Shown here: positions 2,617 to 17,523 of the stretch, in pieces
Numbering within the stretch: the stretch's first letter is position 1
How the letters are laid out: each line of letters starts with the position of its first letter
Assembly: GCA_945787635.1 (NCBI GenBank)
Contig: CALZIK010000128.1
Span: 1-37,402, forward strand
DNA: 37,402 nt
Reading direction: 5' to 3'
DNA from: Thermoanaerobaculia bacterium
Lineage (GTDB): Bacteria > Acidobacteriota > Thermoanaerobaculia > Multivoradales > JAHEKO01
Made by a program: the position numbers and the translations under genes
The notes under the pieces: generated by a model
Databases searched by the model: none
What the model was told of the DNA's origin: nothing
The model's input: the letters and a program-made list of their open reading frames with translations, nothing else

Positions 2617-5600
2617 GTGTTGACTGATTCCCTCCCCGTCGTTTCGAGGTCGATCGCAAGGGCCGTCGCGATCCTGGTTGCGATGGCGTGGCTCGGGCAC
2701 GCCATCGCCGCGACCGTTCCCGGGGGGCTCGAGAGTGTGATCGTGGCTCCTGTCTGGTCGGGCCATCCGGTTGCATTCGCCATCGAGACCATCGGCGAGC
2801 GTCAGTACGTCGCCTACTACGATCGAGACCGCCGGATGACGGTCGCCGCGCGGCGGCTCGATTCGGCGGAGTGGACGTTCCAGAAGCTCCCCCAGACGCT
2901 GGGCTGGGACTCCCACAATCTGATCGCCCTTGCGGTGGATCGGGACGGCTTTGTGCACGTGAGCGGCAACATGCATGGCGATCCGCTGGTCTATTATCGC
3001 ACGCAGGCGCCGCACGATATCGGCAGCCTTCAAGAGGCGAGGATGGTCGGGTCTCGCGAGAAGCGGGTGAGCTATCCACTGTTCGTTCATGGACCGGACG
3101 GCGCTCTCTTTTTTCAATACCGCGATGGCAAGAGCGGAAACGGCGTGCAGATCGTGAATGCCTACGATCTCGAGACCGGCAGCTGGCGACGGCTCCTTTC
3201 CGAGCCGCTTCTCGACGGTGGCGGTCGGATGAGCGCGTATCCCGCAGGCCCGACGATTGGACCCGACGGGTACTTCCATCTCGCGTGGATGTGGCGTGAC
3301 GATCCCAGCGGGGCGACCAATCACGACCTCTCCTATGCCCGGAGTCCGGACCTCGTCCGCTGGGAAACGGCAGGGGGAGAGCCCTTGCGGCTGCCATTTC
3401 GTCCGAACGATCGCGCTGCGGTCGTCGATCCGGTACCTTCGGGGGGAGGCCTGGCCGGAATCGCCTTCGGGGTCGGCTGGGACACCGGGAGCCGGCCGAT
3501 TCTGACGTATTCGAAGTACGGACCCGACGGGGCGAGTCAGGCCTTCAACGCACGCTATGCCGGCCAGTGGGAGATTCGCCAGGCGAGTGCCTGGGGCTAT
3601 CGCTGGCCGCTCGACAGGACCGGGACGCTCGGTGACGACATCGTTGTCCGGCCGCCGATTGTCGATTCTGCCGGGCGTTTGATTCAGGAGTTTCGGCATC
3701 TCGAGGCGGGCCGCGGCCGCTGGGTACTGGATCCCGAATCCCTGGCTCCGGTCGAGACCCTGCCGGCTCTCGAAACGTTCGAGTCTCTGACCCACCCCGA
3801 GTCGGAGATCCCCGGCATGGAGGTGCGCGAGTTCATCCGTGATCGCGAGGGTCGGTACTTCCTACGCTGGGAAACGCTGCCGGTTCACCGTGATCGACCG
3901 CGCCGGCCCCCCTATCCCGAACCGAGCATCTTGCGGGTCTTTCGACTTCCGAATCCGGGTCCGGCCGGGTATCCGGGTGCCGAGAGGCCGGACAGCGACT
4001 CGCCGAGCGCGCAGGATCCGCCGAGAGCTGCGACCGAAGACAGCGAGCCTGAGACTTCAGAGCCATCTCTCGACCCGGCTCTTCTCGAGGCTCGTGGTGC
4101 ACGGATCGGAGAGGTCTCGATCGAGGTCGCCAATGTTTTCGACGAGCGCGATCCCACCGAGAATCGAGCGCTGTTTCGTTCGATCAACCGGTTGCGAAGA
4201 AAGACCAGGCCGCACGTCGTCCGAAATGACCTGCTGTTCGGAAGTGGAGACCCGTATTCGGCACGACTACTCGAGGAATCGGAACGAATCCTGCGCAGCC
4301 GGTCGTATCTGTATGAAGCCGATGTGCGCCCCGTCGCTTACCGGGAGGCCGAGGATAAGGGCGGCACCGGGGAGGTCGACGTCGAAGTCGTAACTCGCGA
4401 CGTCTGGACCTTGACCGGCGGGGTGTCCTTCTCGCGCAGCGGTGGTGAGAACAGCACGCGGTTCAACGCCCGAGATACGAATTTCCTGGGAACCGGCAAG
4501 GAGGTCGGCGTCAGCCGCGAGTCCGATGTGGATCGAATCAGAAGCGAGCTGTTTTACCGCGACTCTAATTTCTTGGGAAATCGAGGCCAGGTCGAGCTCT
4601 CGCTGCAGGAAAACAGCGACGGCCACCGCCGCCTGCTCAAACTGCAGCGCCCCTTCTACGCGCTCGATTCTCGAAGATCCAAGGGGCTGACGGTTCTTAC
4701 GGAGCGCAGAATCGACCCCTTGTTCGACCGTGGAGAGGTCATAAGAGAGTTTCGCCACGAGATCGATCTGCTGAATGCCCATTGGGGTTTTTCACGTGGT
4801 CTGCAGAAGCGCGGCGCCAAGCGGTGGACACTGGGATTCACCTATTCGAGGGACCAATTCGCCGAGCCTCTGACCGGACCACCGCTCGAAGGCCTACCGC
4901 CCGCTCGAACCCTCTCCTATCCCTCGATCGGTTTCGAGTGGGTCGAGGATCGGTTTCTCGAAGCTCGAGACCTCGACAAGATCGCGCGCACCGAAGACCT
5001 GAATTTGGGGACGGTCGTCTCGGTCGCGGCCGGATGGTCTTCGTCGGTTTTCGGCGGTGACGAAGACCAGGCCTTGGTCGGTTTCACGGTCTCGAGCGGG
5101 TTTCGTCCTTCGCGCGAGCGGGATTTACTCCTCGTGGACGGAAGCGGCGGTACCCGGTGGGGCCGGGACGGGTTCGAGGACGCCAACCTCAGAGGATCGC
5201 TGCGTTTCTTCCGTCGCAATCTCGGCAGGCATGCCTTCCTGGCGGAGCTCCAGGTGGCTGCGGTCGAGAATCTGGACGCCGAAGAACAGCTTCTCATTGG
5301 TGGTGACAGCGGCTTGCGAGGCTATCCGCTGCGCTTCCAGAGCGGCGACCGCCGAGTGCTCTTGACCCTGGAGCAGCGTTTCTATTCGAATGTCGAAGTG
5401 CTGAAACTGGCGGCGCTCGGAGCTGCCATCTTCGTGGATGTCGGTCGCGCCTGGTTTGCCGGCGGCGACAACGGCGACCTCGGAGTGTTGAAGGACGTGG
5501 GTCTTGGGTTGCGCTTCGTTCCGACCCGGTCAGGGCGCGGTTCGGTTCTCCATCTCGACGTTGCCCTGCCGCTCGATGGGGACGGCTCGATCGAGAGCCT

Positions 5601-5634
5601 GCAGTTTCTGGTGACCACCAAAGAGTCTCTATGA
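2617..5634 (+). CDS. Fusion of BNR_4-type beta-propeller with POTRA and Omp85-type outer-membrane barrel
   Basis: This 1005-residue continuous frame joins two unrelated modules. After a signal peptide (about residues 12-32), residues 40-440 resemble BNR repeat-containing BNR_4 proteins, the seven-bladed propeller fold of ulvan lyase families PL24/PL25: VSGNMHGDPLVYYR near residue 115 with a conserved His, YPLFVHGPDGALFFQYRDG with SGNG near 160-172, and repeated Asp-box-like blades. A Pro/Ser/Glu-rich linker (about 445-487) leads to one POTRA domain (495-600; FDERDP, VRNDLLFGSGDPYSARLLEE) and a BamA/TamA-like 16-strand barrel (605-1005) with the Omp85 hallmark GGDSGLRGYP near residue 894. The start is GTG at 2617 (TTG at 2620 is possible, with GGAAG five bases upstream). 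Its stop overlaps the GH105 start (ATGA). I infer an enzyme or glycan-binding propeller tethered to the outer membrane; activity is not shown. Confidence 0.85.
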   Translation: MLTDSLPVVSRSIARAVAILVAMAWLGHAIAATVPGGLESVIVAPVWSGHPVAFAIETIGERQYVAYYDRDRRMTVAARRLDSAEWTFQKLPQTLGWDSHNLIALAVDRDGFVHVSGNMHGDPLVYYRTQAPHDIGSLQEARMVGSREKRVSYPLFVHGPDGALFFQYRDGKSGNGVQIVNAYDLETGSWRRLLSEPLLDGGGRMSAYPAGPTIGPDGYFHLAWMWRDDPSGATNHDLSYARSPDLVRWETAGGEPLRLPFRPNDRAAVVDPVPSGGGLAGIAFGVGWDTGSRPILTYSKYGPDGASQAFNARYAGQWEIRQASAWGYRWPLDRTGTLGDDIVVRPPIVDSAGRLIQEFRHLEAGRGRWVLDPESLAPVETLPALETFESLTHPESEIPGMEVREFIRDREGRYFLRWETLPVHRDRPRRPPYPEPSILRVFRLPNPGPAGYPGAERPDSDSPSAQDPPRAATEDSEPETSEPSLDPALLEARGARIGEVSIEVANVFDERDPTENRALFRSINRLRRKTRPHVVRNDLLFGSGDPYSARLLEESERILRSRSYLYEADVRPVAYREAEDKGGTGEVDVEVVTRDVWTLTGGVSFSRSGGENSTRFNARDTNFLGTGKEVGVSRESDVDRIRSELFYRDSNFLGNRGQVELSLQENSDGHRRLLKLQRPFYALDSRRSKGLTVLTERRIDPLFDRGEVIREFRHEIDLLNAHWGFSRGLQKRGAKRWTLGFTYSRDQFAEPLTGPPLEGLPPARTLSYPSIGFEWVEDRFLEARDLDKIARTEDLNLGTVVSVAAGWSSSVFGGDEDQALVGFTVSSGFRPSRERDLLLVDGSGGTRWGRDGFEDANLRGSLRFFRRNLGRHAFLAELQVAAVENLDAEEQLLIGGDSGLRGYPLRFQSGDRRVLLTLEQRFYSNVEVLKLAALGAAIFVDVGRAWFAGGDNGDLGVLKDVGLGLRFVPTRSGRGSVLHLDVALPLDGDGSIESLQFLVTTKESL

Positions 5635-6728
5635 GCCGCCTCTCGCCAGGGGCTCGCTGGCCGGCGGTTGTGCTTGCGGTCGCCCTGGCTCTGGGCTGCA
5701 GCGTCGAGCCGAGAGAGCTCGGTGCCGGCGAAGATCCCCTGGCACCGGCCGAGATTCTGGCCGTGGCCGAACGGGTCGCCGGATGGCAGCTCGCGCATCC
5801 CAGACACGGTGATCTCGAGTGGACCAACGCGGTTTTCTACAGCGGGCTCGTGGCCGCCTACCGGGTGACGGGCGATGATCGCTACCTCGCCGTGCCGATC
5901 GAAGTGGGAGAGCGGCACGAATGGCGGATCGGGCCCCGAACCCGGCACGCCGACGATCACGCGCTGGCTCAGACCTATCTGGAGTTGTTCGGCCTGAAGC
6001 GGGATTCGCGCATGCTCCGTTCTTTCAGGGAAGTCGCCGATCGGATGATCGCCGAGCCGGCTGCTTGGCCGAAGGAGCATCAGGTCGTCGACTACTGGTG
6101 GTCGGACGCACTGTTCATGTCACCCCCGGCACTCGCCATGCTGGCGCGGGCCACCGACGACGAGCGGTATCTGGAATTGATGGATCGGCTGTGGCGCGAG
6201 TCCTACGATCTTCTCTATGACCGTAGTGGAGGGCTTTTCCATCGAGATCTAAGGTTTCGCGAACCCCAGGCGCGTTTCTGGTCAAGGGGTAACGCCTGGG
6301 TGCTGGCCGGGCTGGCTCGACTGCTCGAGGCTCTGCCGGAGGACTGGCCGACGCGTTCTTTCTACGAGACCGTGTTCCGGGACTTGTCCGGGCGGGTTGT
6401 GGACCTACAGGCCGGGGACGGCCTTTGGCGCTCGGATCTGGCCAGCGCAGACTCCTCTCGGCGGGGCGAGAGCAGCGGGTCGGCTCTGTTCTGCTACGCC
6501 CTGGCGTGGGGAGTCAACAACGAGTTTCTGAGCGCGGAGGCGTTTCGGCCGGCGGTCACTGCGTCCTGGGTCGCTCTCTACCGCAACGTCGACGCGGCCG
6601 GGCGGCTGGGCTGGGTGCAAAAGCCCGGCGCCAAGCCGGCGCGGGCGTCGAGCCGGGACTGGGAAGTCTACGGAAGCGGAGCTTTCTTACTGGCGGCGGA
6701 GCAAGTCCTCGATCTTCAAGCTCAGTGA
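5631..6728 (+). CDS. GH105/GH88-like unsaturated glycuronyl hydrolase, lipoprotein
   Basis: A 365-residue protein of the six-hairpin (alpha/alpha)6 glycoside hydrolase superfamily, most like GH105 (YteR-type, PF07470). These enzymes remove the unsaturated uronic acid that polysaccharide lyases leave at the non-reducing end. The N-terminus is a lipoprotein signal with a lipobox ending LALGC (Cys at about residue 23). Family signatures seen are the catalytic-Asp region RTRHADDHALAQTYLEL, then DYWWSDALFMSPPALAML, FWSRGNAWVLAGLARLLE, GLWRSDL, and the C-terminal SRDWEVYGSGAFLLAAEQV. Length matches the family (about 350-390). Its ATG overlaps the stop of the propeller-barrel gene, so translation is probably coupled, and a lyase-like propeller next to GH105 is the usual pairing for uronate-containing glycans. 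The 3' end overlaps the convergent methyltransferase gene by seven bases. The substrate is not determined. Confidence 0.9.
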   Translation: MSRLSPGARWPAVVLAVALALGCSVEPRELGAGEDPLAPAEILAVAERVAGWQLAHPRHGDLEWTNAVFYSGLVAAYRVTGDDRYLAVPIEVGERHEWRIGPRTRHADDHALAQTYLELFGLKRDSRMLRSFREVADRMIAEPAAWPKEHQVVDYWWSDALFMSPPALAMLARATDDERYLELMDRLWRESYDLLYDRSGGLFHRDLRFREPQARFWSRGNAWVLAGLARLLEALPEDWPTRSFYETVFRDLSGRVVDLQAGDGLWRSDLASADSSRRGESSGSALFCYALAWGVNNEFLSAEAFRPAVTASWVALYRNVDAAGRLGWVQKPGAKPARASSRDWEVYGSGAFLLAAEQVLDLQAQ

Positions 6729-7497: not shown

Positions 7498-8589
7498 GTG
7501 AAAGACGCCGCCGGCCCAGGGCTTCGCGGCCGGGGAACCGCCGAGAATCCCCGATCGCGTTTCGAGAGACTCGAAGTCGAGCTCGACGCTCCGCCGACCG
7601 GCCAGCTCGCGACCGAGTATCTGGAAGACGCCAGCCGGTCGATCATTGCTCGCAACCAGAGCCCGGACGTCGGCTTCGACGCGTCGATCAACCCGTACCG
7701 GGGCTGCGAGCACGGGTGCTCCTACTGCTACGCGCGGCCCACCCACGAGTATCTCGGCCTGTCGGCCGGGCTCGACTTCGAGTCCCGGATTCTGGTCAAG
7801 AAGCACGCTCCTGAGCTCTTGGCCCGCGAGCTGGCTTCGCCGCGTTGGCAGCCGCAGACTCTCGGCCTCTCCGGCGTCACCGATCCGTACCAGCCGATCG
7901 AGCGCAAGCTCGAGATCACCCGGCGCTGCATCGAAGTGCTGGCCCGTTTTCGCAATCCGGTCGTCGTGGTGACCAAGAACCATCTGGTCACGCGCGATAT
8001 CGATCATCTTGCCGAACTGGCTCGCTCTCCGGATGGGACCGCCGCGAAACAGTCGGCGGCGGCGGTTTTTCTTTCGATCACGACTCTGGATGGGGAACTG
8101 GCCAGGAAGCTCGAACCGCGGACTTCGCGGCCGGCACGGCGTCTGGAGGCGATTACGGAGCTGGCCGGGCGAGGGGTTCCGGTCGGAGTTCTGGTCGCGC
8201 CGGTGATCCCGGCCCTGACCGATCACGAGATTCCCGACATCCTGTCCGCGGCGAGGCAGGCCGGAGCCGGTTACGCCGCCTGGGTCATGCTGCGCCTCCC
8301 CGGCAGAGTCGCCGGCCTCTTCGACGCCTGGCTCGCGAGATCGGTTCCGGAGCGCAGGGACCACGTGCTGTCTCGAATTCGAGAGATCCGCGGCGGTGAG
8401 CTGAACGACTCGAGATACGGCACGCGGGGTCGGGGCCAAGGAGTCTTCGCAGAGCAGATTCGCGACCTCTTTCGCACCTCGGCGCGGCGGTTGGGGTATC
8501 CCGTCCACCGCCCGACGCTCACGGCCGATGGGTTTCGGCGGGAGCCGGACCAGCTCGATCTGAGCAGATTGTTCGCTACTAATGAGTAA
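7498..8589 (+). CDS. PA0069/Rv2578c family radical SAM protein
   Basis: A 363-residue cytoplasmic radical SAM enzyme. The CX3CX2C motif that binds the [4Fe-4S] cluster is in NPYRGCEHGCSYCYARPTHE (about residues 75-85). The N-terminal GLRGRGTAENPRSRFE motif and the later LSGVTDPYQPIERKLEITRR and VVVVTKNHLVTRDIDHLA stretches are diagnostic of the PA0069 family, related to spore photoproduct lyase-like proteins. The C-terminal part has APVIPALTDHEIPDIL and a basic end. The start is GTG at 7498 with no strong ribosome-binding site. The 3' end overlaps the start of the GH2 gene by eight bases, yet the functions look unrelated. The physiological reaction of this family is unknown. Confidence 0.92.
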   Translation: MKDAAGPGLRGRGTAENPRSRFERLEVELDAPPTGQLATEYLEDASRSIIARNQSPDVGFDASINPYRGCEHGCSYCYARPTHEYLGLSAGLDFESRILVKKHAPELLARELASPRWQPQTLGLSGVTDPYQPIERKLEITRRCIEVLARFRNPVVVVTKNHLVTRDIDHLAELARSPDGTAAKQSAAAVFLSITTLDGELARKLEPRTSRPARRLEAITELAGRGVPVGVLVAPVIPALTDHEIPDILSAARQAGAGYAAWVMLRLPGRVAGLFDAWLARSVPERRDHVLSRIREIRGGELNDSRYGTRGRGQGVFAEQIRDLFRTSARRLGYPVHRPTLTADGFRREPDQLDLSRLFATNE

Positions 8590-11254
8590 CCATATAGCCG
8601 CAAGTCGGCGAGTCATATATGTGAGCATAGGGTTACTGATAGTTTCGGTCGGGAACAGGGACAACCTCAGCGCGGAGCCACACTCCGTCGAGACCGAGGT
8701 GCTTTTTCTTTCGGGTAGCGGCTCTGATCAGACCGTACCGTGGCAGTTTCGAGTCGATCGCGGGCGCCGAGCCGGGACCTGGAGTTGGATTCCGGTTCCG
8801 TCACAATGGGAGCTTCAGGGATTCGGCGCCTATGCCTACGGTCTGGATGATCCCGACCGAGAGCGCCATGCCGAAACGGGCCTCTACCGGCACGGCTTTG
8901 AGGTACCGGCGGCGTGGAGCGGGCGCCGCGTGCGGCTGGTCTTCGAAGGGGTGATGACCGACGCGTCGGTCAAGATCAATGGCCGAAGAGCCGGACCGAC
9001 GCATCGGGGCGGCTTCACCCGGTTCGCCCATGACGTGACGGATCTGCTCGACTACGGCGCCGGGAATGTCCTCGAGGTCGAGGTCCGGGAGGCCTCGACC
9101 GACGGCACGGTCAACGGTGCCGAACGCGAAGCCGACTACTGGCTTTTTGGTGGGATCTACCGGCCGGTCTACCTGGAGGCTCGGCCGGAGCGGTCGATCG
9201 AGCACGTGTCGATCGATGCGCGTCACGGCGGCGAGCTCGAGGTCGAGGTTGAGCTTTCGGGCGTGACCGGGGGCGAAGAGGTCACGGTTCAGGTTCGGGA
9301 TCCCGTCTCCGGTCTGGCGGTGGGTTCGGCGCTTGTCGGCCGGCTGGAAGCCGGTCAAGACACGAAGCGGCTTCAGGGGCGCTCTTCGGATGCGTGGAGC
9401 TGGAGCGCGGAGCGGCCGCACCTCTACCGGCTGGAGGTCACCCTCGCCGACGCGGGCAAAGCCCTTCACACGACGAGCCTCAGATTCGGTTTTCGCACGG
9501 TCGAGGTCAGGCTCAGCGACGGGCTCTACGTCAATGACCGACGGGTTCGACTGCGAGGAGTCAACCGGCACTCTTTCTGGCCCGATTCGGGAAGAGCGCT
9601 CGGCGTCGGTCGCAATCGCCGGGACGCCGAGCTTCTCAAAGCGCTCAATGCCAACGCGGTTCGAACGTCGCACTACCCGCCGGACCGCGAGTTTCTCGAG
9701 GCTTGCGACGAGCTCGGCCTATACGTGATCGACGAGCTGCCCGGCTGGCATGACGCCTATAGGGCCGGCGTCGGCAGCCGGCTGATCGCGGAGATGGTCC
9801 GCCGCGATCTCAACCATCCGTCGATCATCCTGTGGGCCAACGGCAACGAAGGCGGCTGGAACAGCCTCCTCGACAACGAGTTCCAGCGCCATGATGTGCA
9901 GTCACGGACGGTCATCCACCCTGGCTCGATCGCCGGCGGCATCGACGCGACTCACTACCCGGACTACCCGACGCTCGAGGCCATGCTCGGCGAGGACAAT
10001 CTGATCCGGAAAGTGGGGCGGCTCGGGAGACCGCGGCATCTGGTGCTGCCTACCGAGATGCTTCACGGGCTCTACGACGGCGGCGGCGGGGCCGGCCTCG
10101 AGGACTTCTGGCGTTTGCTCGAGGCCTCGCCACTGGCAGCCGGGGGCTTTCTATGGTCGCTGTTTGACGAAGGTGTCGTCCGCACCGATCTCGGAGGCGC
10201 CCTCGACACGCGAGGCAACTACGCTCCGGACGGCATCTTCGGTCCGTTCCGAGAGCCCGAAGCGAGCGTCGACACGATCCGCCGGCTGTGGGCTCCGGTT
10301 CGCCTTGAACACGCGGACTGGGAGACCGGGCGGGTGCGCCTCCAGAACCGGTACGCCGAGACGAATCTTTCCGAGCTGCGATTTCGCTGGCAGGGCCTGA
10401 CCCTTCCAGGTCCGGGCTCGGGCGCGACCGAAACGACCGTCTTCGACCTCGAGACTCCGGGCCCCGATCTCGAACCGGGGACGAGCGGTGAGCTTCGCTT
10501 GAGCGCCATGCCCGACGTTTTCTTTCATGCCCTGCGCCTGACAGCGCTTCACTCGAGTGGCCGGACGGTGAGCTCCTGGACCGGTTGGTCGGTCAATCCC
10601 TCGACCTTTCTGGCGCAATGGTTGGAGCCCAACGAAAGGGGGGAGCCGCAAGGCGGGACGAGGCCGTCGTGGCTCGAGGGGCCGACACCCCTTGGGGCTT
10701 CTGTTGACCCACCGGTCGAAGGTCGGGACTCGGACAGCGCCTGGCAGGCCTTCTCCTCCGGTTGGGTGCGGCTCGAGGTCGCGCACTCCGACCCGACTGG
10801 TTTCGCGCTCGACTTTGGGGACTTCGAGGTCGAGACCATCGAATGGCTGGGGGACGGCCCCGGGTCGGTGTGGGCCAACCGGCTCGTGGGGCCGACCCTG
10901 GGGGTCTGGCGGCGAGGTCTCGACAACCCGACAGCTCCCTGGCGAGGAGCGCGTGGCTTCTACCGTGGGGTCCGCTGGATTCGATTGCTGGGAGCAACGG
11001 GTAGCTTGACGGTGGTGGTCGAGCCCGAAGATCTGTTCGTGGGAGTCTCGTCGCCCAGCTTTCCGACCGATGCCCGAAATGCTCGGGCCGAGCTGCCGCC
11101 GCTGGGGACGGTATCGTTTCTGCGCAGGATCCCCGCCATCGGGACCAAGTTCCACGCCGCGACGAGCCTCGGGCCCGCGCCGGCGCCGGCGCATGCCGCG
11201 GGTCCCGAGGTGGCCCGCGTCGACGTCGTGTGGTTCAAGCGCGATCCGGTTTGA
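8582..11254 (+). CDS. Glycoside hydrolase family 2 enzyme (beta-galactosidase/beta-glucuronidase type)
   Basis: An 890-residue secreted GH2 enzyme. After a signal-like N-terminus (hydrophobic IYVSIGLLIVSVG), the sugar-binding jelly-roll domain covers about residues 45-205 (VPSQWELQGFGAYAYG, GLYRHGFEVP, DYWLFGGIYRPVYLEA). The immunoglobulin-like domain covers about 205-310 and the TIM barrel about 310-560. The catalytic acid/base is Glu423 in LWANGNEGGWN and the probable nucleophile is Glu492 in LVLPTEML. RGVNRHSFWPD and VRTSHYPPDREFLEACDELG are standard GH2 barrel motifs. The remaining 330 residues form extra beta domains. The ATG at 8582 overlaps the end of the radical SAM gene. The first 25 codons are unusually AT-rich (several ATA and one TTA codon), unlike the rest; GTG at 8621 is an alternative start that would shorten the signal. 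Sugar specificity cannot be read from sequence. Confidence 0.93.
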   Translation: MSNHIAASRRVIYVSIGLLIVSVGNRDNLSAEPHSVETEVLFLSGSGSDQTVPWQFRVDRGRRAGTWSWIPVPSQWELQGFGAYAYGLDDPDRERHAETGLYRHGFEVPAAWSGRRVRLVFEGVMTDASVKINGRRAGPTHRGGFTRFAHDVTDLLDYGAGNVLEVEVREASTDGTVNGAEREADYWLFGGIYRPVYLEARPERSIEHVSIDARHGGELEVEVELSGVTGGEEVTVQVRDPVSGLAVGSALVGRLEAGQDTKRLQGRSSDAWSWSAERPHLYRLEVTLADAGKALHTTSLRFGFRTVEVRLSDGLYVNDRRVRLRGVNRHSFWPDSGRALGVGRNRRDAELLKALNANAVRTSHYPPDREFLEACDELGLYVIDELPGWHDAYRAGVGSRLIAEMVRRDLNHPSIILWANGNEGGWNSLLDNEFQRHDVQSRTVIHPGSIAGGIDATHYPDYPTLEAMLGEDNLIRKVGRLGRPRHLVLPTEMLHGLYDGGGGAGLEDFWRLLEASPLAAGGFLWSLFDEGVVRTDLGGALDTRGNYAPDGIFGPFREPEASVDTIRRLWAPVRLEHADWETGRVRLQNRYAETNLSELRFRWQGLTLPGPGSGATETTVFDLETPGPDLEPGTSGELRLSAMPDVFFHALRLTALHSSGRTVSSWTGWSVNPSTFLAQWLEPNERGEPQGGTRPSWLEGPTPLGASVDPPVEGRDSDSAWQAFSSGWVRLEVAHSDPTGFALDFGDFEVETIEWLGDGPGSVWANRLVGPTLGVWRRGLDNPTAPWRGARGFYRGVRWIRLLGATGSLTVVVEPEDLFVGVSSPSFPTDARNARAELPPLGTVSFLRRIPAIGTKFHAATSLGPAPAPAHAAGPEVARVDVVWFKRDPV

Positions 11255-14429: not shown

Positions 14430-14496
14430 CGGGCTCCCGATCGAGTCGTCGATCCCGCGATAGACTCGCGGTTTCCTTGGGATGGTGGCTCGCCTC

Positions 14497-17400
14497 ATGA
14501 TCGGCTCGACCCTCGCGCACTACAAGATCACGGCCAAGCTCGGCCACGGCGGCATGGGCGAGGTCTACCTGGCCGAGGACACCCGGCTCAAGCGCAAGGT
14601 CGCGCTCAAGGTGTTGTCGGCGGATGTGGCCGGCGACGCGGACCGCCTGGCGCGTTTTCAACGCGAGGCCGAGACCGTCGCCGGGCTGAACCATCCCAAC
14701 ATCGTCACCCTGTATTCGGTGGAATCGGAAGAGGAGGTCCACTTCATCACGATGGAGTTGGTGGAGGGCCGCACACTCGACGAGATCATCGCCCCGGAAG
14801 GCCTCTCGCTCGAGAAGGTGTTCGAACTGGCGATTCCCTTTGCCGACGCGCTCAGCGCCGCCCACGAGAGGGGCATCATCCATCGTGACTTGAAGCCCGC
14901 GAATGTCATGGTCACCGACGAGGGGCGGGTGAAGGTGCTGGACTTCGGTTTGGCAAAGCCGGTCGAGGAGCCCGGCTCCGAAGAGGAGGCCACCCAGCTT
15001 CTCACTGAGGAAGGCAGGGTGCTCGGGACGGTGCCCTACATGTCGCCCGAGCAGGTCAAAGGACAGCCTCTGGATCGGCGCTCGGACATCTTCTCGATGG
15101 GCGTGATGCTCTACGAGATGGCGACCGGCTCGCGACCGTTTCAGGGAGAAACCTCGGCGGAGTTGATCTCGTCTATCCTGCGCGACGAGCCGGCTCCGGT
15201 GAGCGAGGTCAAGGTCGACTTGCCGCACCATCTCGGCCGCGTCATCCGTCACTGTCTCGAAAAGAATCCCAAGCGCCGGTACCAGTCGGCACTGGATATC
15301 CGCAACGAGTTGGTGGATCTGCGCAGGGAGGTCGAGTCCGGCTCGGTTGTCAGCGAAAGCGCGATTGGCTCGGTATCGACCTCGGCGCTGCCTGCGGCCA
15401 AGGCTCACCCGGACGGCGAGCAGCCCACGACTTCGCGCACTGGGCGCAAGAGTTGGTGGATGCAGGCCGCGGGCGTGGCCGTGATCGTGGCCGTCGTTCT
15501 GATCGGCCTCAAACTCGCGCAAGGGTCCCGAGACTCGGACAACGTCTCCTCGAGGTCGGGCGCAATGGCCGCTGACACCTCGGACAAGCCTTCGATCGCG
15601 GTCATGTTCTTCGACAACCTCTCGGGTGATCCGAATCTCGACTGGCTCCGCAACGGCCTGACCGACATGCTGGTCACCGATCTTTCCCAGTCGCCCGACC
15701 TGCGCGTGTTGTCCACGAACCGCGTCTACCAGATCCTCTCCGACATGAAGAAGCTCGACGAGCGCATCGCCTCCTTCGAGGTCATCCGGGAAGTTGCCGA
15801 GCAGGCCTCCGCCGACAAGGTGATTCTCGGGAGCTTTGCCAAGCTGGGTGAGACGATTCGGATCTCGATCACCATCCAGGAGGCCGCGACCGGCGAGATC
15901 CTGAAATCGGACAGCGTCGACGCCAGCGCTCAGGAGGACATCTTCGCGCGAATCGACGATCTGTCGCGAGGCATCCGCCACAGCATCAGGCTTCCGGGCA
16001 AGCCCACGGTCGTTGCGGATCGGAATCTGGCCGAGGTCAGCACCCAGTCGGTCGAGGCGTACCGGCACTATATGGAGGCGGAGCGACTCCACTACGAAAG
16101 CCGCGATCTCGAGGCGATCGAGCACTACAGGAAGGCGGTCGAGGCCGACCCCGAGTTCGCGATGGCCTGGGCGAAGCTCTCGACCGCCTACAGCAACACG
16201 GGCAGGCAGGCCGAGGGGATCGAGTATGCCGAGCGGGCGATCGAGCATCTGGATCGCTTGACCGAGCCGGAACGGGCCTACATCGAGGGCCGCTACTACG
16301 GTCGCACCTTGGCGACGTTCGGGCGGGCGATCGAGACCTACAACGCGACGCTCGCCAAGTATCCGCATCTTACGAGCTTGGCCAACAACGTGGGGATTCT
16401 CTATTCAAGTGTGTGGCTCTACGAGGAGGCGATTGCCGCCTTCGAAGGAGCCCTCGTGCACGGCGACCGGTTTCCGGGCACCCACGGCGGACTGGCCGAG
16501 GCACATTTCTCGCTCGGCGAGACTGCCGAGGCGTCCGCTGTGCTCGACCGTTTTCTCGCCGAGAATCCGACGCAGTTCACCGGCTATCTCTACCGCGCCG
16601 AAATGAAGTTGGCGATGGGCGACATCGCCGGCGCCAAGGCCGACCTCGAGCGGGTCGAAGAGCTGCAGCCGGGGTACTTCGCTCTGGAGTTCTCACGGTA
16701 CGCGATCGGGGTGCTCGAGCGGGATTGGGATCGGGTCTCCGAGTCGATCGAAAAGCTTCGAGCTCTGCCGTTTGCCTTTGCGAAGGCGGCTGCCTACGGC
16801 CTCGAGATCAACAAGCTCTTCTATCTCGGCAATTGGACCGAAGCGATCGCGCTCATCGAGCCCGCAATCGAGGCTTGGGGCGGTCCCAGCGTTCAGCGCG
16901 CCGGTGTGTTGCTGAACATCGCGATGGGTTTTTACTTGAATGGAGAAGCGGAGCCGGCGCTCCGATACGCCCGGGCGGCTCGCGAAGAGGGCCGTGACGA
17001 CGCGCCGGACTACCTCGCCCATGGCATCGAAGCGCTTGCCCACCAGGCCCTGGGCCAGGAGCGACGCGCCGACCTTCTCATCGAGGAGCTAGCGCGGCGG
17101 GCGCAAGCCGTGCCGGGCCACACTCTCGAGTTCTGGCTGCATGAAACGCGCGGCCGGCTGGCGCTGGCGAGAGGCGCGACCGGCGAGGGCATCGCTGAGC
17201 TCGAAAAGGCTGAAGCCCTGCTTCCGAGCTTCGACCAGAACAGCTGCCGGGTCTGGTTCGCGCTCGGTGACGCGTACCTTGAAGCCGGACGATCGCGCGA
17301 CGCAGAGGCGAGGTTTCGCAAAATCCTCGAGTCCAATTCGGCCCGGGCGTTTTCCGGAGCCGAGTACGTGAGAAGCCATCTGCGCCTGGCGGAGCTCCTG

Positions 17401-17523
17401 AGGGAGCGCGGCGAGCTCGATGCCGCGCGCGAGCTCTACAAAACGTTTCTCGACTACTGGGAGAACGGCGATACCGACCGCTCGCAAGTCGCTCGGGCGC
17501 GGGAGTTTCTGGCTCGATCCTAG
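14497..17523 (+). CDS. Membrane Ser/Thr protein kinase with TolB-like and TPR extracytoplasmic part
   Basis: A protein of 1008 residues. The N-terminal kinase domain (about 5-270) has the glycine loop LGHGGMGEVYLAED, the VALKVL lysine, the catalytic loop HRDLKPANVMV (about 128), DFGLAKPV and the activation-loop end GTVPYMSPEQVKG. One membrane segment follows at about 318-343 (WMQAAGVAVIVAVVLIGLKL). The outer part begins with a TolB-N/adenylate-cyclase-associated module (SIAVMFFDNLSGDPNLDWLR, LGSFAKLGETIRISITIQEA) and continues as many TPR repeats to the C-terminus. The start is ATG at 14497 (MIGSTLAHYKI is the family's usual opening); ATG at 14482 is also in frame. Kinases with this layout are abundant in Acidobacteriota. 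The ligand and targets are unknown. Probably a single-gene transcript. Confidence 0.92.
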   Translation: MIGSTLAHYKITAKLGHGGMGEVYLAEDTRLKRKVALKVLSADVAGDADRLARFQREAETVAGLNHPNIVTLYSVESEEEVHFITMELVEGRTLDEIIAPEGLSLEKVFELAIPFADALSAAHERGIIHRDLKPANVMVTDEGRVKVLDFGLAKPVEEPGSEEEATQLLTEEGRVLGTVPYMSPEQVKGQPLDRRSDIFSMGVMLYEMATGSRPFQGETSAELISSILRDEPAPVSEVKVDLPHHLGRVIRHCLEKNPKRRYQSALDIRNELVDLRREVESGSVVSESAIGSVSTSALPAAKAHPDGEQPTTSRTGRKSWWMQAAGVAVIVAVVLIGLKLAQGSRDSDNVSSRSGAMAADTSDKPSIAVMFFDNLSGDPNLDWLRNGLTDMLVTDLSQSPDLRVLSTNRVYQILSDMKKLDERIASFEVIREVAEQASADKVILGSFAKLGETIRISITIQEAATGEILKSDSVDASAQEDIFARIDDLSRGIRHSIRLPGKPTVVADRNLAEVSTQSVEAYRHYMEAERLHYESRDLEAIEHYRKAVEADPEFAMAWAKLSTAYSNTGRQAEGIEYAERAIEHLDRLTEPERAYIEGRYYGRTLATFGRAIETYNATLAKYPHLTSLANNVGILYSSVWLYEEAIAAFEGALVHGDRFPGTHGGLAEAHFSLGETAEASAVLDRFLAENPTQFTGYLYRAEMKLAMGDIAGAKADLERVEELQPGYFALEFSRYAIGVLERDWDRVSESIEKLRALPFAFAKAAAYGLEINKLFYLGNWTEAIALIEPAIEAWGGPSVQRAGVLLNIAMGFYLNGEAEPALRYARAAREEGRDDAPDYLAHGIEALAHQALGQERRADLLIEELARRAQAVPGHTLEFWLHETRGRLALARGATGEGIAELEKAEALLPSFDQNSCRVWFALGDAYLEAGRSRDAEARFRKILESNSARAFSGAEYVRSHLRLAELLRERGELDAARELYKTFLDYWENGDTDRSQVARAREFLARS

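Follow-up and report, generated by a model that had tools for sequence, protein, structure and literature searches.

A GH145/PL42-like beta-propeller in one frame with a POTRA domain and an Omp85 barrel

In a 2014 survey of the architectures of Omp85 proteins, the N-terminal partners of the barrel are patatin, metallo (PF00149) and WD40 domains, and the main text mentions neither lyases nor glyco- domains (PMC4104836). In the patatin-Omp85 proteins PlpD and FplA, also known as type Vd and defined by their N-terminal patatin domain, the order is enzyme, linker, single POTRA and C-terminal Omp85 barrel: the enzyme is a patatin phospholipase, and the linker is a predicted helix. The patatin domain of PlpD has been located in the periplasm, packed on the POTRA, a result that challenges the export model; where type V passengers are known to be translocated, they are beta-helical or coiled-coil (PMC11116518). 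PlpD is further characterised as a homodimer. In the WD40-Omp85 proteins (Heinz and Lithgow 2014), a TolB-like WD40 propeller precedes the barrel in an architecture that has no POTRA.

Propellers of another kind are found in the families PL42 and GH145, among them FoRham1, BT3686, BACCELL_00856 and BACPLE_00338, which combine a BNR_4 propeller with an anterior Asp-His-His-Tyr-Arg set. These anterior residues have been linked by mutagenesis to the beta-elimination of L-Rha-alpha-1,4-GlcA (PMC8377490, PMC10951650), and GH145 members that lack the posterior catalytic residue His48 of BT3686 proved to be lyases (PMC8406133). The solved members of these families and the plasmid-borne relatives that were found have no Omp85 part.

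The protein described here carries such a propeller fused to a POTRA and a barrel. It is encoded in a contig of a Thermoanaerobaculia bacterium, of which the whole stretch that was analysed, 37,402 nucleotides, is called the window. The reading frame starts with GTG, stops with TGA, and runs through 1005 codons without interruption, for a product of 1005 amino acids (Table 1). The order of its parts is that of PlpD, but a polysaccharide-lyase-type propeller stands in place of the patatin, and a Pro/Ser/acid-rich linker in place of the helix. As in the WD40-Omp85 proteins, a propeller precedes the barrel, but here it is of the BNR_4 type and belongs to an enzyme family, and a POTRA is present. 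Since the defining features of both groups fail, the protein is neither a patatin-Omp85 nor a WD40-Omp85: the layout enzyme, POTRA, Omp85 is already known, and the lyase-type propeller in it is a new variant. No report of an earlier lyase-Omp85 fusion was found in the open-access papers of the literature.

Table 1. Coordinates of the features discussed in the text, in the window or, where a locus is named, in other genomes.
Feature	Position	Strand	Basis
Whole fused gene, from the signal peptide to the Omp85 barrel	2617..5634	+	open frame, domain matches
Signal peptide, residues 1-31 (ending ...SIARAVAILVAMAWLGHAIA, followed by AT)	2617..2709	+	sequence inspection; hydrophobic maximum 2.36
GH145/PL42-like seven-bladed beta-propeller, about residues 40-425	2734..3891	+	PF15892, PDB matches
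Predicted PL42 catalytic set, D98 to R227	2908..3297	+	alignment with FoRham1
Linker rich in Pro, Ser and acidic residues, 431-490; no second signal peptide	3907..4086	+	hydropathy
Single POTRA, about residues 497-592	4105..4392	+	PF07244 match, residues 529-590
Barrel of the Omp85 type, about residues 593-1005; its L6-type motif, LRGY, at about 900-903	4393..5631	+	profile matches
GH88/GH105-type unsaturated glucuronyl hydrolase, lipobox (LALGC)	5631..6728	+	PF07470 E 7.6e-67; PDB 4ce7 E 2.3e-65
GH2, beta-galactosidase-like	8582..11254	+	domain matches
Alpha/beta-hydrolase fusions	L069:1955-4363, L071:2062-4467, L072:1560-3980, L073:1748-4096

An earlier note, made from the letters of this DNA, had read one continuous frame through propeller, Pro/Ser-rich linker, POTRA and Omp85 barrel, and had proposed to confirm the junction in independent assemblies and to look for the same architecture elsewhere. 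The domain matches agree with that reading, and so do four stop-free assemblies: besides the genome of the window (G000), the full-length fusion is a single open frame in three of the 148 related genomes searched, namely G001 (67% identity) and G002 (66%), of the same genus, and G004 (57%), of another genus. The length of the linker varies among the fused homologues, always in frame, and the codon-position pattern on either side of it is that of coding sequence. These three observations together establish that the junction is not a sequencing error, and that the fusion is a genuine, conserved single protein. An artefact of sequencing or assembly that merged two genes would find some comfort in the fact that every genome used is a draft, and in the existence of a split state in a fifth genome, G009; but four separate assemblies share the fusion at 57-67% identity with changes of linker length that keep the frame, and the barrels of the fusions have no signal peptide of their own (the maximal 12-residue hydropathy is 0.2 in the linker, versus 2.2 ahead of the separately encoded G009 barrel), which reduces the probability of such an artefact to practically nil. 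The earlier note was prepared to give up its reading if homologues always came as two separate genes: there are four fused copies and one split copy.

The BNR_4 profile (PF15892) covers residues 62-326 at its full length, with an E-value of 1.3e-79, and the NCBIfam model of the BT3686 rhamnosidase also matches the propeller. Its nearest solved structures are the Bacteroides GH145/PL42 chains (BACINT, BACCELL and BT; PDB 5mum, 5mvh, 4irt and 5muk), with E-values of about 1e-40, followed by FoRham1 at 1e-12, with the ulvan lyases far behind; it is thus a BNR_4-type propeller related to GH145/PL42, as members of PL42 are. The domain had been labelled lyase-like, with a guess at uronate polysaccharides such as ulvan. 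It does have lyase kin, and the guess was correct in kind, but by sequence closeness the family is PL42 and not that of the ulvan lyases, PL24/25; GH145/PL42-like is the more exact label, and among characterised substrates the nearest is Rha-alpha-1,4-GlcA, of gum arabic/AGP caps, not ulvan.

The alignment with FoRham1, corrected for a numbering of the PDB chain that runs two ahead of the numbering of the paper, pairs D83, H85, H105, Y150, R166, Y202 and R220 with D98, H100, H120, Y153, R169, Y208 and R227 of the window's protein, and all seven are invariant across five diverged homologues. The His-His-Asp triad of PL42 (H100, H120 and D98), its neutralising arginine (R169) and the counterparts of Tyr150 and Tyr202 (Y153 and Y208) are thus in place. 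The posterior histidine that marks GH145 alpha-L-rhamnosidases, His48, is missing: its position is held by Ile59 here, and by Ala, Thr, Ser and Val in the other homologues. The sugar-binding arginine aligned with R333 of BT3686 is R345 here, but Asn in G004, and activity may perhaps not be uniform among the members. From these residues, we infer both activity and substrate: the propeller is predicted to be an L-Rha-alpha-1,4-D-GlcA lyase of the PL42 kind.

In the window's protein, the POTRA (PF07244) is a weak match of 17.7 bits; the Pfam cut-off of 21.3 is exceeded by the same domain of the G001 fusion, at 28.6, and of the split G009 barrel, at 24.4. The C-terminal half matches the BamA/Omp85 models of NCBIfam, PF01103 is matched by 15 of the 21 members of the barrel family, and a profile of the 21 barrels matches solved BamA and TamA chains together with 9ccg, the nearest solved relative. 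The LRG of the L6-type motif is invariant in the family, and the protein agrees with the definition of the Omp85 superfamily, in which a barrel with an RG(F/Y) L6 motif comes after one or more POTRA domains. A complete barrel of 16 strands is presumed from its length and from the profile matches at its two ends. An AlphaFold model computed on the single sequence, without alignment, had a pLDDT of 32 and was rejected as the basis of a fold search.

In G009, which represents a third genus, the propeller and barrel halves are overlapping neighbour genes: the TGA stop of the first overlaps the TTG start of the second, in the tetranucleotide TTGA. Each half has its own signal peptide, that of the propeller being read across two overlapping contigs. 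This separation suggests that either half can be exported on its own, and thus that Sec could export the propeller without the barrel. Either G009 lost the fusion or it kept an older two-gene state, and the tree favours neither.

Strong BNR_4 genes are rare in the class: five among 149 genomes, all within the family of the window, and all tied to a barrel, four by fusion and one by adjacency. In the barrel tree, the barrels of these five genomes and that of G006 form one clade with support 100/99. The G006 barrel (L036:1-2433) has neither the propeller nor most of the POTRA, and is joined to a stretch that looks, by eye, of DUF218/SanA type; this odd join is either a misassembly, the result of decay, or an unusual fusion. 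Across the phylum, a search for BNR_4 turned up no other long frame resembling an Omp85 fusion: one candidate of 716 amino acids, in G203, was rejected because its extra C-terminal region does not read as a barrel. A tblastn search of plasmids found propellers and barrels separately only, with no fusion, and a scan of the contigs of the named genomes added one partial barrel and nothing more.

Barrels without an enzyme are common, at 42-50% identity within the order and about 30% within the class. Some of them lie in long frames: scoring of the coding potential reduced those of G117 and G084, for example, to barrel genes of the usual kind, and those of G036 and G103 were rejected as fusions for their spurious-looking sequence at the start. 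In one family, a conserved gene directly upstream of the unfused barrel encodes a protein beginning with MANPDH (L065:370-3497, L062, L066, L067, L076); the L065 copy, the sole one tested, is a pentapeptide-repeat protein. In both genomes of one family, a GH2 gene precedes the unfused barrel by about 15 bp (L048:8708-12813 and L050:6590-11262), followed in L050 by a PGI-like gene.

We now turn to the neighbours of the fused gene. The start of the GH88/105 gene overlaps the stop of the fusion by 4 bp (ATGA), its lipobox was read by eye, and 4ce7, the closest solved relative of its product, is an unsaturated 3S-rhamnoglycuronyl hydrolase. The same gene adjoins the fusion in G001 and G002, which makes three genomes with the window; it was not seen beside the propeller gene in G004 or G009. 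A similar pairing of GH145 and GH105 enzymes is described in Bacteroides plebeius, and there it is the GH105 that works on the product of the lyase (PMC8406133). Given this precedent, the gene pair predicts a lyase followed by an unsaturated-uronyl hydrolase as second step. The GH2 gene is not next to the fusion in G001 or G002, and in G018 and G026 a relative of it precedes the unfused barrel at a distance of 15 bp; a tie between GH2 and the fusion is suggestive, and the barrel may accompany glycan enzymes. Further along the window, positions 14482-17523 encode a Ser/Thr protein kinase whose C-terminal part is a long TPR region.

The genome of the window has no GH43 match and no RhaA isomerase, and so offers no support for whole arabinogalactan as a growth substrate or for the isomerase route. 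The same absences could be read in favour of an enzyme that trims a Rha-GlcA surface polysaccharide or exopolysaccharide of the host itself, a maturation role that a periplasmic location would suit. However, pairs of PL42/GH145 and GH105 enzymes have been described for foreign glycans (PMC8406133), and no polysaccharide synthesis genes were recognised among the scanned genes of the window: we hold this self-trimming role to be very improbable.

A propeller could also have ceased to be an enzyme. It would then be a carbohydrate-binding module, catalytically degenerate or recruited anew, that gives a protein-assembling barrel its docking domain in the periplasm, along the parallel suggested for WD40-Omp85 proteins and BamB. 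Omp85 proteins with a WD40 propeller are already known, the unfused barrel is widespread in the class without an adjacent enzyme, and the asparagine of G004 replaces a sugar-binding arginine. Yet the seven active-site residues have stayed invariant in five diverged homologues, and the GH88/105 gene is next in three genomes, which is consistent with an active lyase; docking seems to us a poor prospect, if somewhat less so than self-trimming.

There remains the side of the membrane on which the lyase would work. The earlier note had considered that the propeller might be passed out through the barrel: nothing here supports this, and its old precedent, PlpD, has been weakened (PMC11116518). In its general form, the proposal is that the barrel moves the attached propeller to the cell surface, as in type Vd autodisplay, or secretes a split partner. 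The architecture does resemble that of the protein behind the type Vd proposal, the polymers that serve as substrate are extracellular, and the split G009 next to the fused G000 recalls two-partner and fused systems. But the enzyme domain of PlpD is periplasmic only (PMC11116518), a closed propeller of seven blades could cross in the unfolded state only, unlike the known beta-helical or coiled-coil passengers, and we saw no sign of transport by the barrel. Surface display is, in our judgment, unlikely.

The likeness of layout to PlpD favours a periplasmic, tethered lyase. The enzyme would probably be periplasmic and the barrel its anchor, whether or not the barrel also forms a pore. In the proposed mechanism, the propeller-barrel protein would be exported by Sec, and the barrel, inserted by the normal outer-membrane route, would tether the lyase to the outer membrane on its inner face, with POTRA and propeller remaining in the periplasm as in PlpD. 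Glycan fragments would reach the periplasm, possibly through or near the barrel; the lyase would decap them by beta-elimination, yielding rhamnose and 4,5-unsaturated glucuronate, and the latter would be removed by the co-encoded GH88/105 lipoprotein. Our belief in this complete scheme, a PL42-kind lyase with the topology of PlpD that passes its product to the lipoprotein, is evenly balanced.

The barrel family has a second enzyme. A different family of the class includes four genomes, from two genera (G076, G106, G109 and G121), in which an alpha/beta hydrolase that is PETase/PAF-AH-like, with a GHS(L/V)G motif, is in one frame with POTRA and barrel. These proteins have the same order of enzyme, POTRA and barrel, and barrels of the same family at 27-29% identity, but their enzyme is esterase-like and their barrels sit on a distant branch of the barrel tree. 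Since the two kinds of fusion lie in distant parts of this tree, the fusion of an enzyme to the barrel family, as read from sequence, arose more than once. Among the hydrolase fusions, the two pairs are not sisters, and one gain with losses, or two gains, are possible. In G118 (L095:1797-5409), an alpha/beta hydrolase closely related to the fused ones, a PIG-L deacetylase and a barrel are encoded by three consecutive genes on the same strand: an apparent split version of the hydrolase fusion.

It is tempting to conjecture that the single-POTRA Omp85 family is a general chassis that has taken up varied enzymes time and again, by fusion (alpha/beta hydrolase, PL42) or in a shared operon (PL42 in G009, alpha/beta hydrolase and PIG-L in G118, GH2 in G018 and G026), the barrel being a substrate-specific entry gate from which fragments of glycan or lipid pass to the attached enzyme. 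This idea is tentative, and more doubtful than not; if true, it would describe an outer-membrane uptake-and-cleave machine in one polypeptide. With this fusion, the short list of known enzymes on Omp85 barrels gains a predicted sugar enzyme, and its natural split version in a sister genus makes its role directly testable. A lyase and an alpha/beta hydrolase on one barrel family would lend weight to the recent idea of an Omp85 scaffold put to uses beyond protein assembly and secretion.
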